DNA of 43,940 nucleotides from positions 1 through 43,940 of the forward strand of contig NZ_RHNP01000023.1 in assembly GCF_003950295.1 (NCBI RefSeq). Direction: 5' to 3'. Positions within the stretch are counted from its first letter, which is position 1; each line of letters begins with the position of its first letter. Made by a program: the position numbers and the translations under genes. This DNA comes from Loigolactobacillus iwatensis. Lineage in GTDB: Bacteria > Bacillota > Bacilli > Lactobacillales > Lactobacillaceae. The notes below the pieces were generated by a model. It saw only the letters and a list, made by a program, of their open reading frames with translations. It was not told the origin of the DNA and searched no databases. Positions 9,784 to 16,291 of this stretch are shown one piece after another.

Positions 9784-10830
9784 TTAGTCAGATACAACGA
9801 CCATTGATTTGATTGTTTTACGATTTTGCATATCTTGATAAGCTTGATTGATATCATTTAAGCGGTAGGTCTTGGTAAAGACACGACCAGGATTAATATT
9901 GCCATCAAGAACTGCTTTCAGCAAAAATTGTTTATCATAAGTCGTCACAGAAGCGGAACCACCTGCTACTGAAATATTTTGTGCAAAGGTTGAACCCATA
10001 GCATGGTTATTGTAGTGTGGTACACCGACATAACCAATCCGACCACCGTTATGCAATACACCAAGCGCTTGGTCAATCGCTGACTCTGTCCCCACGCATT
10101 CAAGTGTAGCATCGGCGCCACCGCCAAGCAACGCACGAACCTTAGCAATACCTTCTGCACCACGTTCCGCGACAACAGCGGTAGCACCTGACTGCAGCGC
10201 CATCTGTTGACGATCTTCGTGGCGACTCATGAGAACAATTTGTGAAGCACCACGCATTTTCGCCGCAATGACAGCACACTGACCAACGGCACCGTCACCG
10301 ATGACAACAACTTTATCACCTCTTTGAACATTGGCACACCGCGCTGCATGATAACCGGTTGGCATCACATCCGCTAAGGTTGTAAGTGAATTGATCATCC
10401 CTTCTGTGTAGTCGGATGGTTGCCCAGGAACCTTGATCAAAGCCCAGTTTGCATACTGGAAACGGATATATTCTGATTGGAAACCGTTGGACCAGTTAGT
10501 ACCACCTTGATGGCGATCACAAGTCCCATCAAATCCAGCCAAACAAGCATCACATTCACCACAACCGTGAGTAAAGGGTGCAATCACAAAATCGCCCGGT
10601 TTCACCGTCGTAATGGCAGAACCCACTTCTTCAACAATACCAAGTGCTTCATGACCATCATTAACGGAATGAGGTTCTTTATTGTCGCCATGCGCATAAG
10701 CCCAGAGATCAGAACCACAGACACACGCCCGAACAACTTTGATGATCACATCATCAGCAGCTTGTAGACTTGGTTTATCAACGTCTTGAACTGTTACTAG
10801 ACCAGCCTTTTCAAAAATTGCAGATTTCAT
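9784..10830 (-). CDS. Zinc-dependent alcohol dehydrogenase-like oxidoreductase
   Basis: This 348-residue protein is a medium-chain zinc dehydrogenase acting on alcohols, aldehydes or related substrates with NAD(P). Catalytic zinc ligands are visible as Cys38 (in VCGSD) and His60 with Glu61 (GHEALG). Structural zinc is bound by Cys90, 93, 96 and 104. The Rossmann site is GDGAVGQ in the second half. The start is ATG at 10830, where homology to the family begins; the open frame upstream is leader. No good Shine-Dalgarno lies next to this ATG, and a hairpin occupies the leader. It is the only intact island gene for which I do not see a 19-bp-spacer promoter; its likely promoter has a normal 17-bp spacer. 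Substrate unknown. Confidence 0.88.
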   Translation of the reverse strand: MKSAIFEKAGLVTVQDVDKPSLQAADDVIIKVVRACVCGSDLWAYAHGDNKEPHSVNDGHEALGIVEEVGSAITTVKPGDFVIAPFTHGCGECDACLAGFDGTCDRHQGGTNWSNGFQSEYIRFQYANWALIKVPGQPSDYTEGMINSLTTLADVMPTGYHAARCANVQRGDKVVVIGDGAVGQCAVIAAKMRGASQIVLMSRHEDRQQMALQSGATAVVAERGAEGIAKVRALLGGGADATLECVGTESAIDQALGVLHNGGRIGYVGVPHYNNHAMGSTFAQNISVAGGSASVTTYDKQFLLKAVLDGNINPGRVFTKTYRLNDINQAYQDMQNRKTIKSMVVVSD

Positions 10831-10983: not shown

Positions 10984-11592
10984 TTATTTACGGTTGATGC
11001 CTAAACTGTCACGTGCCCCTAGCTTAGGATCATGGGCCAGCCGCATAACTAGATCAGCGATACTAACAACGGAAACATCATGCCCACCAAATGGTTCGCC
11101 TTTATGGGTAACTTGATAAGCGGTGTCGCTGCCATTATCAAACCAGCCGGGACGAATAATCGTATAATTTAGATCAGATGCTTCAATCACATCAGCAGCA
11201 TCCCGATAAGTTTGTAAAACTGGGTTAGACGCCAAGTTACCGGAAGCACCAACTGCTGCTGGGATCTCATTGTAAATACCCATTGAAGTGATAAATAATA
11301 ATCGTTTAACCCCAGCTTCATCCATTGCGGCAACCAGTGATTGCGCCATTGCCCGCAGGTTGCCACTTAAGGCAGCAAAGACAACATCTTGTCCCTTCAA
11401 CGCATCCTGCAGCATTGTTTTATCAGTGACACTACCTGCAATTGCGTGTTCACGGTCAGCATTTAAGTTTCCTAAACGCCGCGTATTGCGGGCCATTAAA
11501 GTTAGCTGATCCGTTGTGTTAGCCAACAAATACTGCCGGGTCGTGCCACCAACTGTACCAGTAGCGCCAATAATTAATACATTTGCCATCAT
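10984..11592 (-). CDS. NAD(P)-binding atypical SDR (NmrA/YhfK-like)
   Basis: This 202-residue protein is an atypical short-chain dehydrogenase. It starts with the nucleotide-binding strand and loop GATGTVGG (residues 9-16), has an RN motif after the second strand that suggests NADPH, and a conserved IIRPGWFDNG segment. It lacks the classical YxxxK catalytic pair in an obvious form. Relatives include quinone or nitro reductase-like and redox-sensing proteins, so function is uncertain. The ATG at 11592 has GGAGG six bases upstream; a second ATG follows directly. It is transcribed divergently from the tautomerase gene, from a MerR-type promoter (11635-11665). Confidence 0.83.
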   Translation of the reverse strand: MMANVLIIGATGTVGGTTRQYLLANTTDQLTLMARNTRRLGNLNADREHAIAGSVTDKTMLQDALKGQDVVFAALSGNLRAMAQSLVAAMDEAGVKRLLFITSMGIYNEIPAAVGASGNLASNPVLQTYRDAADVIEASDLNYTIIRPGWFDNGSDTAYQVTHKGEPFGGHDVSVVSIADLVMRLAHDPKLGARDSLGINRK

Positions 11593-11634: not shown

Positions 11635-11665
11635 ACTATAGTCCCTTACACTAACTGCAAGGCAA
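11635..11665 (-). promoter_or_regulatory. MerR-type promoter A (SDR gene)
   Basis: On the minus strand TTGCCT (11665-11660) and TATAGT (11640-11635) are separated by 19 bases. The dyad CCTTGC-N7-GTAAGG spans the end of the -35 and the spacer. A 19-bp spacer with a central dyad is the hallmark of MerR-regulated promoters. Confidence 0.75.
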
Positions 11666-11683
11666 GCTATTTTTTAAAAAAGT

Positions 11684-11714
11684 TTGACTTCTAGTGGGTG
11701 CAAGACGCTAATAT
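11684..11714 (+). promoter_or_regulatory. MerR-type promoter D (tautomerase gene)
   Basis: TTGACT (11684-11689) and TAATAT (11709-11714) are 19 bases apart, with the spacer TCTAGTGGGTGCAAGACGC matching the T--AGT--GTG-AAG core of the other three sites. The start codon follows 35 bases later. It faces away from promoter A, 18 bases apart. Confidence 0.68.
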
Positions 11715-11749
11715 AAGTTGCACCCCAACTAGGAAAGGAGCTTCACTTA

Positions 11750-12142
11750 ATGCCATTACTACAATTTAATTTAGTCAAAGACGTTTGGACCAAAACACAA
11801 GTCAAAGAAATCTTGGATAGTGCCTATCAAGTTACGCTGGCAGCTTTTAAGGCCCCACAAGGTGACCGTTACCAAACAGTTACTTATTATGCTGCTGAAG
11901 ATTTAGTCTTAGGCGACACCGGCCTAGGATTTACCCGTTCGAATAAACGAATTTTACTGAATATTCGAACACGACCGCGTACCGAAGCAGAAAAGGTCCA
12001 ATTTTATCAGGCTCTGGCAGCGCAACTACAAACAAAACTAAACCTGGCCCCTAACGATCTCATGATCAATATGGTGGAAAACGGTGACGCTGATTGGAGT
12101 TTTGCGGCTGGTAAGGCCCAATTTCTGACCGGTGATCTATGA
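11750..12142 (+). CDS. Tautomerase-superfamily protein (MSAD-like)
   Basis: This 130-residue protein belongs to the tautomerase superfamily, in which the amino-terminal Pro exposed after Met removal is the catalytic residue. Pro2 is present. Arg73 and Arg75 in NIRTRPR and Asp39 match the layout I know for malonate semialdehyde decarboxylase (Pro1, Asp37, two Arg near 73-75), so a decarboxylase or hydratase-type activity on small keto acids is possible. AAAGGAG lies at good distance before ATG 11750. It is monocistronic, with a MerR-type promoter and a terminator. In this setting it may act on reactive carbonyl compounds, which is inference. Confidence 0.82.
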   Translation: MPLLQFNLVKDVWTKTQVKEILDSAYQVTLAAFKAPQGDRYQTVTYYAAEDLVLGDTGLGFTRSNKRILLNIRTRPRTEAEKVQFYQALAAQLQTKLNLAPNDLMINMVENGDADWSFAAGKAQFLTGDL

Positions 12143-12145
12143 GCC

Positions 12146-12184
12146 AAAGGACAATAATCGCAATCTAACGGTTATTGTCCTTTT
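12146..12184. terminator. Terminator between convergent tautomerase and SnoaL-like genes
   Basis: AAAGGACAATAA (12146-12157) pairs with TTATTGTCCTTT (12172-12183), with T on the plus side. It lies between two convergent genes and could stop transcription from both. Confidence 0.8.
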
Positions 12185-12188
12185 CCGA

Positions 12189-12629
12189 TCAATACATGCT
12201 AGCATCAATGTGCATGATCAACCATTGCCCATTGACCTTATTCAAATGTAATTCTAATTGTAAGGGCCACGTGTTCCGTGAACCATAAATACTGGCATCA
12301 ACCTGGCTTTGACCAACTAAAACTGCTTGCTCAGCGGTTAACTCAGTCACAGCCACATGATCTTCCGTTGACGAAAAATAATGCATTTGACCACTTTGAA
12401 TTTCGCTAAGCCACTTTTGCTTACTTTGCACCATCCCGGTCATATGGACCAAATGGAAATCATCCGCCAATAAGGCACCTAACTTGTCAAGATCACCGGC
12501 AACCATATACTGATTATGCCTGCGATACATGTCAACAACACTTTGTTTAGGATCAGTTTGCTTTAATGTTGAAACCAAACCGGGAAATAGATTTTCATGA
12601 TTTTGTTGTGCCATTTTGCTAATTGCCAT
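12189..12629 (-). CDS. SnoaL/NTF2-like protein
   Basis: This 146-residue protein has the NTF2-like fold pattern of SnoaL-type proteins: an early helix with YRRHNQYMVAGDLDKLGALLADDFHLVHMTG, then a strand-rich second half with HLNKVNGQWLIMHID. Such proteins bind or isomerise small hydrophobic molecules, and many have no known reaction. GGAGGG lies 7 bases before the ATG at 12629; the ATG immediately before it (12632) is nearly as good. It is a single-gene unit with a MerR-type promoter 35-45 bases upstream, which ties it to the island regulon. Confidence 0.78.
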   Translation of the reverse strand: MAISKMAQQNHENLFPGLVSTLKQTDPKQSVVDMYRRHNQYMVAGDLDKLGALLADDFHLVHMTGMVQSKQKWLSEIQSGQMHYFSSTEDHVAVTELTAEQAVLVGQSQVDASIYGSRNTWPLQLELHLNKVNGQWLIMHIDASMY

Positions 12630-12671
12630 CATCTTACCCTCCAAAATTAGTTAAATTTTTAATTCAAAGTA

Positions 12672-12702
12672 AGCTTATGCCCTTGCACTTACTGTAAGGC
12701 AA
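12672..12702 (-). promoter_or_regulatory. MerR-type promoter B (SnoaL-like gene)
   Basis: On the minus strand TTGCCT (12702-12697) and TAAGCT (12677-12672) are 19 bases apart. The dyad CCTTAC-N7-GCAAGG (12681-12699) is nearly identical to the one in promoter A. Confidence 0.72.
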
Positions 12703-12771
12703 CCATCAATTGTACTTTTCTGCCCAAAATAGCCAATTTACTAATTATTTAGTTACACTACTTTTTTGCCG

Positions 12772-13245
12772 TCAACTAATGAACGTAAAGACTATGGCCA
12801 AAAGTACAAAGACCAATGTATTGAGCCAGAATAAATTGTGAATACTAGCAATGTGCAAGCTATTTTCTAGCAATAAGGCAGTATAAGGTGACAAAGACCC
12901 AGCCAAGTTATATGCAATCAGGATCAACGAAGTGGCCAAGATATTACCATTACCTTCTAAATTCACTGCGTTCAAGATTCATGAAAAAAATAAACCAGCG
13001 CCGATGACCGTCAACCAAGTGAAATTGGCTATTGCAATTAACACCATTGCTAGCGCTAATGACGTAAAAACCACGACCAAAATACGAGCCTGCAGCCAAG
13101 TGAATAAACGACCAAATAATAAACCGCTAAGCATTGCACCAAGCCTTAACGTCCAAAGTACTTCTTTAATACTGATTAAATCAAGTAAACCGCGTGAAGC
13201 TCCAATTATTAAAAAAATCATAATCAAATTATGCTTAACCGGCTA
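12772..13245 (-). pseudogene. C-terminal fragment of an MFS transporter with an in-frame stop
   Basis: Two consecutive open stretches in the same frame (13227 to 12979, then 12975 to 12772) are separated only by a TGA. Together they encode about five hydrophobic helices typical of the second half of a roughly 400-residue major-facilitator transporter, including SRGLLDLISI and LNAVNLEGNGN. The first half is missing: the frame closes at a TAG near 13246, inside the control region of the adjacent MerR gene. A possible N-terminal scrap of an MFS gene is at 16292-16393 on the other strand. Confidence 0.75.
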
Positions 13246-13293
13246 ACATAGTGAGTTACACTTAAGCTATGAAATTTTAAATGAGGTGCAAAT

Positions 13294-13728
13294 ATGAACA
13301 TTAAAGAAGCTAGCAATCAAACAGGTGTTTCCTCTGCTGCCATTCGTTACTATGAAAAGGAATTATTGATTCCCGCAATTGATCGTAGTGAAACAGGTAA
13401 TCGCGAAATCGATGCTCGCATCATTCGCCGGATCAATTTTGTTAAACAAATGCGAGCTGCTGGCATGACTATTGAAAACCTACGTCGTTATATTGAATTA
13501 TTCGACTCAAAAGAAGATAACGACAAAGAACAAATTGCCTTGTTAGCAGAACAATTAAGCGATATGGAAGAACGACGCGATGATATTCAATCAGCTATTG
13601 ATCACCTACACTATAAACTAGAACACTATTATGATCATGTCGTTGCATCAGAAAAAGAATTACAAGAACTAGAACGCAAACATGACGAACAAGTTGCCCA
13701 GACCAATGATGCCGAAGCTAAATTTTAA
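13294..13728 (+). CDS. MerR-family transcriptional regulator (AdhR-like)
   Basis: This 144-residue regulator has the MerR winged-helix domain at its N-terminus (NIKEASNQTGVSSAAIRYYEKELLI, then RRINFVKQMRAAGMTIENLRRYIEL) and a long Lys/Glu-rich coiled coil at about 75-130 for dimerisation. There is no Cys, so it does not sense thiol-reactive compounds directly in the manner of NmlR or AdhR. GAGGTG precedes ATG 13294. The upstream region holds TAAC-N7-GTTA (13244-13258), a dyad with the same spacing as the island operators, so autoregulation is possible. It is one of two candidates for controlling the four 19-bp-spacer promoters. Confidence 0.9.
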   Translation: MNIKEASNQTGVSSAAIRYYEKELLIPAIDRSETGNREIDARIIRRINFVKQMRAAGMTIENLRRYIELFDSKEDNDKEQIALLAEQLSDMEERRDDIQSAIDHLHYKLEHYYDHVVASEKELQELERKHDEQVAQTNDAEAKF

Positions 13729-13743
13729 GTCACTAGGCTAAAA

Positions 13744-13790
13744 AGAACCGACCACTAAGACACATAATCTTAGTGGTCGGTTCTCTTTAG
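13744..13790. terminator. Strong bidirectional hairpin after the MerR gene
   Basis: A perfect 17-bp stem (13744-13760 against 13768-13784) has a T run on both strands, better on the minus strand. It can end the MerR transcript and also transcription arriving from the cupin pseudogene side. Confidence 0.85.
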
Positions 13791-13798
13791 TTTGGCTA

Positions 13799-14197
13799 TT
13801 ATTTATCCGCTGCAGCGTACTGCTCATCTGTTACTGGTTCAAGCCACTTCGGTGTTCCCGCTGTAATAAAACCAACTATCTTTTGTTGCGCTCTGCCAGT
13901 GTTTAACCACCTCATGCGTCACTACAACATTACCGGCAACTAAAATGACGAGCCGGCTGATCCGCTTCCTGATACCAGCCCTCACCACCTGTAACTAATA
14001 AAAATTGGCATCCATTATGATGAATGCCAGTTATGACGACAACCTGGCTCAAAAGTCACATTACCAACACCACATTAACTTCGGGTCATTAACTAAACCT
14101 TGTAAATAACTTTGCCCTAAAAAATATTGGCAAAAGCATCATTTTTAGGTTCCATTTTGAAAATACCATTTCTCACTGCTGTTTCCTTTTGACTCAT
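13799..14197 (-). pseudogene. Frameshifted cupin-domain protein
   Basis: Translation of the minus strand in successive frames gives a recognisable small cupin protein. It starts at ATG 14197 (MSQKETAVRNGIFKMEP, with GAAGG upstream) and goes on with YFLGQSYLQGLVNDP, then VTFEPGCRHNWH, then QFLLVTGGEGWYQEADQPA, then VVKHWQSATKDSWF. It ends with PKWLEPVTDEQYAAADK and TAA at 13799. At least four frameshifts interrupt it, so no full product can be made. The RHNWH and VVKHW segments hold the expected metal-binding His positions. Cupins of this type often accompany MerR regulators and oxidoreductases in lactic acid bacteria. Confidence 0.8.
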
Positions 14198-14235
14198 TGT
14201 AAACGGCCTTCTTATCTATTTGATCTAGTGTTAGG

Positions 14236-14592
14236 TCAACTTTCTAATTGACGTAGCTCGCATTCCGCAAGACTTTGATTTTCTTGTAGATAATTTAAAT
14301 GTGCTAGCTCTAACTTAAGATCATTACGTTTTTCATCTAATTGAACTAACGTCTGTTTTAAAAGTGTCGTTTGAGCCGCAATTAGCTTTTGTTTCTCGTT
14401 TTGTAGTTCCGTATAACGTTTCAATTTATCTAGGTCGATCCCAACAGCGTACATTTCATCAATAAATTTCACAAAATCATTGATTTGTCGCTGAGTAAAC
14501 AGTTTTGAATCGGGTAGCAAAGCCGAATTTTGATAGAATTTAAGTTTTGATTTAGAAATTCCAGTTTGACGACTCAGTGTTTGGCTAGTCAT
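14236..14592 (-). CDS. MerR-family transcriptional regulator, co-transcribed with efflux pump
   Basis: This 118-residue protein is a short MerR-type regulator. The N-terminal winged helix reads SQTLSRQTGISKSKLKFYQ, followed by FVKFIDEMYAVGIDLDKLKRY and a coiled-coil tail with LQNEKQKLIAAQ. The usual Arg-Tyr-Tyr of MerR helix 2 is replaced by Lys-Phe-Tyr. ATG 14592 has AAGGAG upstream. It starts 38 bases after the DHA2 pump gene, and the pair is expressed from MerR-type promoter C, the classic arrangement of a pump with its own regulator. A single Cys near the C-terminus (CELRQLES) could be redox-sensitive, but nothing proves it. Confidence 0.83.
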   Translation of the reverse strand: MTSQTLSRQTGISKSKLKFYQNSALLPDSKLFTQRQINDFVKFIDEMYAVGIDLDKLKRYTELQNEKQKLIAAQTTLLKQTLVQLDEKRNDLKLELAHLNYLQENQSLAECELRQLES

Positions 14593-14630
14593 AAAAATTA
14601 CTCTCCTTCCCACTTTACAATCTTACAGCG

Positions 14631-15995
14631 TTAGTTATTTTGTTTTTTTGGTACAATCAAAATAATCGTCAAGAGCAGCGCAATAATTAGAAATCCAACA
14701 CCGCCGCGCAAGGCCCAATCAGTCCGTAAAACCAAATTATTTGTTCCAGCCAAGGCTGTCCCCAGTACGACCAGAATAGCCAAACCCAATGAGCCACCGA
14801 CTTGATGGGCCACGTTGACGACGCCAGAAGCGGCGCCAGTATCCCGTGGTTCAATATCAGCGATTCCGGCTGTGGTCAACGGACTTAATGCGGCACCCTG
14901 ACCAAGACCAATCAAGATCATTGGCAGCGCAATCGTTAAAATATAGTTGCCATTAGCACCGGCAAAACTCAGCCAAAACATGCCAATAATGGTCAATATT
15001 AAACCACCAACTAAGGTCATGCCGTTACCAAATTTGGCCGTCCAGCGGGAAACTTGCAAGGCGCTGATGAAATTTGCAATCGTCATTGGAAAGAAACCGA
15101 TCCCAGCTAGTAGTGGTGAAAAACCGTATACCTTTTGTAAGAACTGCGTAATAAAAAACCAAAATGCCATCATCGCGCCTAAAAATAACATCCGTGCTAA
15201 GTAAGCGCCTGTCCGCTCTTTATTCTTGAAAACACGTAATGGCATAATTGGCTGTGCCACTTTAGCTTCACGAAGAACAAATAGCGCTAATAAAATGACT
15301 GCTGCAATAATCCAATACCAGGCCGTGTTGCTATCTGAGATTAACAAGATTCCGTAAACCAAACTAACCATCCCAACTAGAGAAAGTAGTGAACCGATGC
15401 CGTCAAACGAACCTTTTTGTGCTTTAGTCGCGTGCACCGTTTTGCTAGCCCAAATAAACATCACAATAGCGATGGGAACATTAACGAAAAATGCATAACG
15501 CCAACTTAATAAACTGGCGAACAACCCACCAATAACTAAGCCTAAACTAGCACCGATACCGGCCACGGCCCCATAATCAGCCACCGCACGAATCCGTTTT
15601 GGCCCGGCCGGAATACTATCCATTAGTAACGCCAAGGTCGATGGTGCTAATGCGGCCGCACCGGCACCTTGAAAACCACGGGCAATGATCAGCCAAGTGG
15701 CACTATTGGCCAAACCAACCAATAATGACCCAATACCAAAAATCACTAGACCAAAGTTAAAAATTTGTTTGCGGCCAATGATGTCGCCTAGCCGACCGCC
15801 TAATAACAATAACCCGCCAAAAATAATCGTGTAGGCATTTTGCACCCAAGTCAAATTGGCCGTTGATAAGTGTAGATCACTCTGAATATTAGGTAACGCT
15901 GTGATAACCACCGATACATCTAACACCGTCATAAAATAACTGACGAGTACGATCGCTAAAATAGCAAATTCGTATTTAGTAAATTTGTTTTGCAT
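14631..15995 (-). CDS. DHA2-family MFS drug efflux transporter
   Basis: This 454-residue protein is a drug:proton antiporter of the 14-helix DHA2 family (EmrB/QacA-like) in the cytoplasmic membrane. It shows LDVSVVITALPNI in the first helix (motif D1), GGRLGDIIGRK in the first cytoplasmic loop (motif A) and GASLGLVIGG in helix 5 (motif C). GAGGAG precedes ATG 15995. It heads a two-gene unit with the MerR regulator. The substrate is unknown; the context suggests toxic organic compounds. Confidence 0.92.
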   Translation of the reverse strand: MQNKFTKYEFAILAIVLVSYFMTVLDVSVVITALPNIQSDLHLSTANLTWVQNAYTIIFGGLLLLGGRLGDIIGRKQIFNFGLVIFGIGSLLVGLANSATWLIIARGFQGAGAAALAPSTLALLMDSIPAGPKRIRAVADYGAVAGIGASLGLVIGGLFASLLSWRYAFFVNVPIAIVMFIWASKTVHATKAQKGSFDGIGSLLSLVGMVSLVYGILLISDSNTAWYWIIAAVILLALFVLREAKVAQPIMPLRVFKNKERTGAYLARMLFLGAMMAFWFFITQFLQKVYGFSPLLAGIGFFPMTIANFISALQVSRWTAKFGNGMTLVGGLILTIIGMFWLSFAGANGNYILTIALPMILIGLGQGAALSPLTTAGIADIEPRDTGAASGVVNVAHQVGGSLGLAILVVLGTALAGTNNLVLRTDWALRGGVGFLIIALLLTIILIVPKKQNN

Positions 15996-16041
15996 GATTT
16001 TTTTGCTCCTCTGTTATGTCTTTATTTTGATCACAAGGAGC

Positions 16042-16072
16042 AGTATATTAGGTTGCAGTAACTTCAAGGCAA
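16042..16072 (-). promoter_or_regulatory. MerR-type promoter C (efflux pump-MerR operon)
   Basis: On the minus strand TTGCCT (16072-16067) and TATACT (16047-16042) are 19 bases apart. The spacer TGAAGTTACTGCAACCTAA shares the core seen in promoters A, B and D; the right half of the dyad is less perfect. The pump start codon lies about 46 bases downstream. Confidence 0.75.
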
Positions 16073-16140
16073 GTCCTTTTCAGAAATTTTTTTATTTTTT
16101 TATCTGCCGATAATAAAAGTAGTTGTTACATAGGTCTTTA

Positions 16141-16186
16141 AAAAGAATCCGTTTAGAAATCAAATGATTTCTAAACGGATTCTTTT
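16141..16186. terminator. Perfect 21-bp bidirectional hairpin
   Basis: Bases 16141-16161 and 16166-16186 are exact reverse complements around the loop AAAT, with A-rich and T-rich flanks on both sides. It would isolate the efflux operon promoter from transcription coming from ffh and from whatever lies to the right. Confidence 0.85.
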
Positions 16187-16291
16187 CTAACAGTTAATTC
16201 ATTGCTTTTACTTCTAAAAAGCGAACGCTACATTAGTAAAGTGTTCAATTATATATGTCACAGCCGCATTTAGAATTTGACAAGGAGCATC

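Follow-up and report, generated by a model that had tools for sequence, protein, structure and literature searches.

Promoter remodelling by regulators of the MerR family is well established (PMC1526738) and its mechanism on 19 bp spacers has been described (PMC8113463). The promoters of MerR, CueR, ZntR, SoxR, BmrR and EcmrR (COG0789) carry a dyad within an over-long spacer of 19-20 bp (PMC1526738, PMC8113463), and the same arrangement occurs in a stretch of 43,940 nucleotides from Loigolactobacillus iwatensis (assembly GCF_003950295.1, contig NZ_RHNP01000023.1, positions 1 to 43,940), referred to here as the window. A MerR-family protein encoded in it, MerR1 (13294..13728, plus strand; 144 residues), probably runs a putative detoxification regulon through such sites in the promoters of a short-chain dehydrogenase/reductase (SDR) gene, a carboxymuconolactone decarboxylase (CMD)/DUF4440 gene and a DHA2-type efflux-pump gene. 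As in the COG0789 systems, a MerR helix-turn-helix is combined with a dimerisation region and the regulator is linked to a pump and detoxification genes. Unlike those systems, MerR1 has neither the metal cysteine nor a GyrI-like domain, and the targets are oxidoreductases, CMD and DUF4440 proteins.

A second point of comparison is AdhR (YraB) of Bacillus subtilis and the NmlR clade, also MerR-family stress regulators. AdhR upregulates adhA, of the zinc-dependent alcohol dehydrogenase type, and the carboxymuconolactone decarboxylase gene yraC (PMC4776306), and genes of both classes lie under sites of the present type too. The clade has an absolutely conserved cysteine, Cys52/Cys54 (PMC4776306), at which MerR1, by eye, usually aligns a glutamine, and in the loci examined the main targets are SDR, DUF4440 and pump genes, unlike those of AdhR. 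The NmlR regulon of Lactobacillales (PMC3616900) resembles the present one in being a MerR-type stress regulon of the same order. In L. plantarum seven MerR genes rise under butanol (PMC7911632). No description of the regulon was found in the titles or opening lines of abstracts among the literature matches listed, or in the available parts of PMC3616900, PMC7911632 and PMC4776306; subscription journals lay mostly outside this search, which is thus weak evidence of absence.

Promoter sites and spacing

A preliminary description of the window had claimed four promoters with spacers of exactly 19 bp, and all four are present, both by inspection of the sequence and by a pattern search of the genome. 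Three are MerR-type promoters on the minus strand: that of the SDR gene at 11635..11665 (-35 box TTGCCT at 11660-11665, -10 box TATAGT at 11635-11640, dyad at 11644-11662), that of the SnoaL-like/DUF4440 gene at 12672..12702 (TTGCCT-19-TAAGCT, dyad at 12681-12699) and that of the pair formed by the DHA2 pump and a second MerR protein, MerR2, at 16042..16072 (TTGCCT-19-TATACT, dyad at 16051-16069). The fourth, a promoter-like 31-mer before a tautomerase gene (11684..11714, plus strand; TTGACT-19-TAATAT), is weak and a doubtful member. The -35 boxes, TTGCCT in the first three and TTGACT in the fourth, are as first described. The -10 boxes lie 42 (SDR), 39 (SnoaL), 46 (pump) and 35 (tautomerase) bases before the start codons, each of which has a purine run resembling a ribosome-binding site. 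The best description of the dyad is CCTTGCAGT-N-ACTGCAAGG, 19 bp long with an odd centre. It had been proposed as common to the sites, which is true of the SDR and SnoaL promoters, in which it is good; the right arm is degraded in the pump promoter (GCAACC instead of GCAAGG), and the tautomerase dyad is poor, with four of eight arm positions matched by eye.

The 2.62 Mb genome was searched with the pattern TTGNCTTNNAGTNNNTGNAAGNNNNTANNNT, derived from the alignment of the earlier reader, allowing up to two mismatches. Seven matches were obtained: five with at most one mismatch, namely the four window sites, within 4.5 kb around MerR1, and one on another contig (C13), and two with two mismatches. 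The reversed control pattern gave no match in the same genome. A scoring matrix trained on 49 unique sites of relatives, with the window genome and one further genome (G001) left out, gave 42.5 for the SDR site, 38.1 for SnoaL, 34.5 for the pump, 32.9 for C13 and 16.0 for the tautomerase, compared with a maximum of 8.3 in one second-order random sequence of 2.62 Mb read on both strands; these absolute scores are generous because the training sites had been preselected by a pattern demanding fixed positions. A sigma-70 promoter scan covered spacers of 16-18 bp only, could therefore not list 19 bp sites and is uninformative. The C13 site (C13:22880-22910; L001 1501-1531) precedes a decayed paralogue of the window SDR gene (likeness by eye) with stops in every frame; here the promoter site has outlived the gene.

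For the spacing, the window, together with 62 named loci and a locus on a plasmid, was searched for the -35 box and dyad core without demanding a -10 box. This gave 56 unique 45-mers, many of them related by descent. TAnnnT stands at spacer 19 in 54 of these and at spacer 17, 18 or 20 in none; other occurrences are one at 16, one at 21, 14 at 24 and four at 25. The sites thus show what characterizes a MerR-type promoter, a dyad in a spacer of 19-20 bp with the spacing fixed, and this fixed spacing is the strongest single argument for that assignment. The proposal of a MerR-type regulon on over-long spacers is supported.

A right arm of AAC(C/G) in place of AAGG is shared by the pump site at 16042-16072 with sites in L239, L242, L243, L246, L255, L254, L297 and L122 (L numbers denote loci, and G numbers genomes). 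Most of these stand before pump relatives, and the AACC form of the window pump site recurs there. Their -10 boxes match TATAAT better than those of AAG sites (mean 4.89, n = 9, versus 4.11, n = 84; p = 7e-5), a p-value that is inflated because most of the nine precede pump relatives.

Association with MerR1

Co-occurrence was assessed in 301 genomes of the family, with a genus subset of eight, taking at least 67% identity as a close MerR1 orthologue (41 genomes, one of them with a partial hit of 82%). The motif, with at most one mismatch, is found in 56 of the 301 genomes: 37/41 with MerR1 versus 19/260 others (Fisher 8.7e-29). The exact motif occurs in 27/41 and 2/260, respectively. Within the genus the motif is present in four genomes, which are the same four that have a MerR1 orthologue at 79% identity or above; three of them also have MerR2. 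Linkage agrees with co-occurrence, as is characteristic of a MerR-type regulon: a site scoring at least 25 lies in the fetched sequence of 45 of 63 MerR1 loci, the window included. A site stands directly before MerR1 in three of the 63 (L250, L297 and L299), and by a strict count seven, two of the three direct cases among them, have a site at the start of a same-strand gene chain that runs up to MerR1; in such chains a pump or oxidoreductase gene behind the site runs into MerR1. Carriers of MerR1 include Loigolactobacillus, Levilactobacillus, Lactiplantibacillus, Secundilactobacillus, Pediococcus, Paucilactobacillus, Furfurilactobacillus and Companilactobacillus. The closest relative among the matches listed, from which records very near the window may be omitted, is that of Loigolactobacillus backii (97%), and a ratio of nonsynonymous to synonymous substitution rates (dN/dS) of 0.077 indicates purifying selection on MerR1. 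MerR1 is most likely the regulator. The earlier suggestion that both MerR proteins take part is not supported: one of them, MerR1, tracks the motif, and MerR2 is rare.

The SDR promoter provides a comparison of orthologues. The preliminary description had expected the motif to recur before orthologues wherever a MerR gene is linked, and this check came out in its favour; for SDR orthologues of at least 72% identity a site is present in 28 of 32 testable cases from MerR1-containing genomes versus none of four from genomes lacking it (Fisher 0.0012). Two of the 38 SDR genes could not be tested, one at a contig end (G213) and one lacking its N-terminus (G059:C19). The four failures in MerR1-containing genomes are G177, in which MerR1 has a stop, G196, G076, which has a weak site (23.4), and G186, in which the SDR gene starts at the end of MerR1 and the site sits before the pump of that chain. 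Among ten orthologues of 57-71% identity, part of those found, a site occurs in one of three with MerR1 and one of seven without. In seven of 11 SDR promoters from MerR1-less genomes, TTGC-TT and TAnnnT remain 19 bp apart with a changed dyad (by eye, on the best-scoring 31-mer of each), which suggests a hand-over to another MerR paralogue.

Several observations weigh against MerR1 as the regulator or reduce the force of these figures. The 67% cut was chosen after the table had been seen, and the genomes are related, so that the p-values are optimistic. The motif is absent from all of another 40 genomes, whose MerR1 relatives are weaker (39-64%), and therefore follows one MerR1 clade; if these are added to give 81 genomes, the comparison becomes 37/81 versus 19/220. 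Four MerR1-containing genomes have no site within one mismatch (G076, G111, G130 and G177); G130 has two-mismatch sites and the MerR1 stop in G177 is in frame. The two variable pairs of arm positions, 8/18 (p = 0.115) and 9/17 (p = 0.547), show no covariation beyond chance, and arm covariation was consequently dropped as a proof of the dyad. In the MerR1-less genome G180 an exact site stands before a different MerR-like gene (by eye). Finally, an even-centred dyad of the CTTNAAGTNNACNTTAAG type lies upstream of MerR1 in eight of the 63 loci (L242, L257, L259, L265, L287, L289, L293 and L295), compared with three for the odd-centred motif; either MerR1 tolerates both forms or another MerR protein controls MerR1 there, and the even-centred site is possibly the operator of another MerR protein or a second form of MerR1 operator. 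This excess slightly lowers the confidence placed in MerR1 and slightly raises that in another paralogue. Sites of the even-centred type are also seen upstream of the SDR gene in L302 and L306, and the region upstream of MerR1 in the window contains neither form.

Regulon content and proposed mechanism

In the loci examined, 97 unique sites score at least 18, of which 91 have a downstream gene. Named after the Pfam families of the cluster representatives, the downstream clusters are NAD_binding_10 (41), major facilitator superfamily (MFS) pumps (15), DUF4440 (10), adh_short SDRs (six), MerR (four), flavodoxin (four), CMD (three), zinc-dependent alcohol dehydrogenases (three, each with its own site in another locus), aldo/keto reductases (two) and three singletons, including a cyclophilin-like protein; the loci were picked around MerR1 or known sites, so these proportions are not genome-wide. 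The MerR cluster comprises three MerR1 proteins and one different MerR-like protein behind a weak site (18.8). The regulon is variable and spread over several genera, with a fifth site before the decayed SDR copy in this genome, and is not unique to this locus. Of the four genes originally assigned to it, those for the SDR, the SnoaL-like protein and the pump have sites matching the matrix of the relatives very well, and the tautomerase site is not conserved.

The assignment of these promoters to MerR1 is built on the sites, their exact spacing, conservation and linkage, and the co-occurrence with MerR1; binding, twisting and activation would follow from what is known of other MerR proteins. 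By that analogy, a MerR1 dimer would bind the dyad CCTTGNAGT-N-ACTNCAAGG, which takes up the 19 bp spacers of the SDR, CMD/DUF4440 and DHA2-pump promoters, and in the absence of a signal would keep the promoter poorly usable. On receiving the signal it would bend and under-twist the spacer, bringing the -35 and -10 boxes into alignment for a start by RNA polymerase with sigma-A. Judged from the gene content, the induced proteins may reduce and modify a small organic compound that is toxic to the cell and pump it out, and the same gene content points to electrophilic or phenolic small molecules as the substrate class.

The two MerR proteins

MerR1 scores above the Pfam cut-offs for PF13411 (52.3 bits), PF00376 (47.7) and PF09278 (39.3) and thus has the N-terminal MerR helix-turn-helix followed by the MerR dimerisation region. 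None of the 67 MerR1 rows read contains a cysteine; in at least two cases these rows count a single locus twice, under different handles. His104, His111 and His115 are present in every one of the 64 rows of at least 63% identity that extend to these positions. Metal-sensing MerR proteins use metal-binding cysteines. MerR1 does not belong to the metal-sensing class (CueR, CadR, ZntR and MerR), since it has no cysteine and its listed equivalog scores fall far short of the cut-offs. Membership of the NmlR/AdhR clade was also rejected: MerR1 scores 103.4 bits against a cut-off of 175 (NCBIfam NF041849) and the sensory cysteine is missing, so that MerR1 is not a thiol switch of that kind. The multidrug-sensing BmrR/EcmrR type is defined by a C-terminal GyrI-like ligand-binding domain, which is absent from the Pfam matches of both MerR1 and MerR2 (E 0.001), so that the regulon does not fall into the BmrR class either. 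Sensing of a ligand or metal through the three histidines is a guess. MerR2 falls just below the Pfam MerR_1 cut-off; no MerD model matches it, and at E 0.001 it matches only the NmlR (25.5 bits) and FtsR models. Its dN/dS of 0.286 between two species (p = 0.013) indicates weak purifying selection, and all four genomes in which it is found contain MerR1 (chance 3e-4).

In mer operons MerD tempers the regulator, and MerR2, although no MerD by sequence, might be analogous. It is conceivable, if improbable, that small cysteine-free MerR sensors with His104, His111 and His115 near the end of the dimerisation helix run an AdhR-like but non-thiol detoxification regulon in many Lactobacillaceae, and that relatives within Loigolactobacillus have gained a feedback arm in which MerR2, as a product of the pump promoter, keeps MerR1 in check, either by forming heterodimers with it or by competing for operators.

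Alternative explanations

The sites could instead be governed by MerR2, or the pump site alone could be, with MerR1 serving something else. The gene for MerR2 immediately follows that for the pump, which has one of the sites before it, and that site has the distinct right arm AACC, but MerR2 is a divergent protein with orthologues (E 1e-15) in four of the 301 genomes, far fewer than carry the motif; two exact sites are present in G002, which lacks MerR2, and other genomes that have no MerR2 (G213, G196, G130 and G153) carry AAC(C/G)-type sites. On the strength of its rarity and the G002 sites, MerR2 was rejected as the main regulator, and this explanation as a whole is very unlikely. Another MerR paralogue elsewhere in the genome, with MerR1 a linked passenger, is an unlikely but slightly stronger candidate. 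The genome has nine MerR_1 matches, including MerR1 and not MerR2, and paralogues seem to use related operators, as in G180 and in the MerR1-less SDR promoters that keep the 19 bp frame around changed centres. The tight co-occurrence and linkage of MerR1 with the motif argue against it, a comparison that covered MerR1 among the nine, as does G002, in which the other MerR relatives found with the MerR1 query (E 0.001) are only 20 and 25% identical. MerR1 might also act at these promoters mainly as a repressor rather than as a signal-driven activator, given that no effector domain is recognised in it apart from the MerR domains and that it has no cysteine; fixed 19 bp spacing is best explained by promoters needing remodelling, and a mainly repressive role is unlikely.

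Membership of the tautomerase promoter is a separate matter. This species may recently have recruited it into the regulon as a genuine fourth promoter, although that is doubtful. All fixed positions of the pattern are present, its score is above the random maximum, and it lies 18 bp from the divergent SDR promoter, where binding of neighbouring MerR1 is possible. However, beyond its poor dyad, its score is like those of altered SDR sites from MerR1-less genomes (16.1 and 19.6). The seven remaining genomes of the genus contain no tautomerase match at E 1e-20, and none of 29 tautomerase relatives, those with fetched DNA among 104 genomes with a match (the window's included), has a site in the 200 bases upstream (best score 4.8). 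For this lack of conservation the tautomerase was rejected as a conserved member; its site may be weak because it was recruited only recently, or its resemblance may be coincidental.

Gene organization of the locus

The SDR gene (10984..11592, minus strand) encodes an NAD(P)H-binding protein (Pfam NAD_binding_10), the commonest target cluster in the loci examined. A zinc-dependent alcohol dehydrogenase gene (9784..10830, minus strand) follows on the same strand after a gap of 153 bp and is possibly in one operon with it. The SnoaL-like gene (12189..12632, minus strand) is an apparent fusion in which the initial ~28 codons, by eye like those of a carboxymuconolactone decarboxylase gene, are joined to a DUF4440 protein, and has a dN/dS of 0.148 relative to the L. 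backii copy. In Pediococcus parvulus (L241) a gene of the CMD cluster lies behind a site two bases different from the SnoaL promoter; the DUF4440 gene may have acquired the promoter and start of the CMD gene through a deletion. The pump (14631..15995, minus strand) is a DHA2-type MFS protein that scores 209.6 bits against TIGR00711, below the cut-off of 230.2, and is followed by the gene of MerR2, a divergent MerR paralogue (14236..14592, minus strand). The doubtful member belongs to the Tautomerase_2 family (11750..12142, plus strand).

Flanking MerR1, at 12760-13240 and 13790-14220 on the minus strand, are remnants with stops that by eye resemble an MFS transporter and a cupin protein. No Pfam family matches the longest of the MFS-like frames, and L. 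backii has a longer version of the cupin-like one (L118 10506-10778). In the interval separating the pump promoter from the next gene, which by eye encodes an ffh-like signal recognition particle protein, a long inverted repeat with T runs (by eye) at 16140-16190 is probably a terminator.

Conclusions

The regulon looks real and mechanistically ordinary, with textbook MerR promoter geometry. A set of anonymous oxidoreductase and pump genes can thereby be tested as a single regulon, for which there is a candidate regulator as well as a 31 bp promoter that can be searched for exactly. It extends over Loigolactobacillus, Levilactobacillus, Lactiplantibacillus, Secundilactobacillus, Pediococcus and other genera, several of which are plant- or brewery-associated, and it offers a natural series in which MerR operators change while the 19 bp promoter frame stays fixed.

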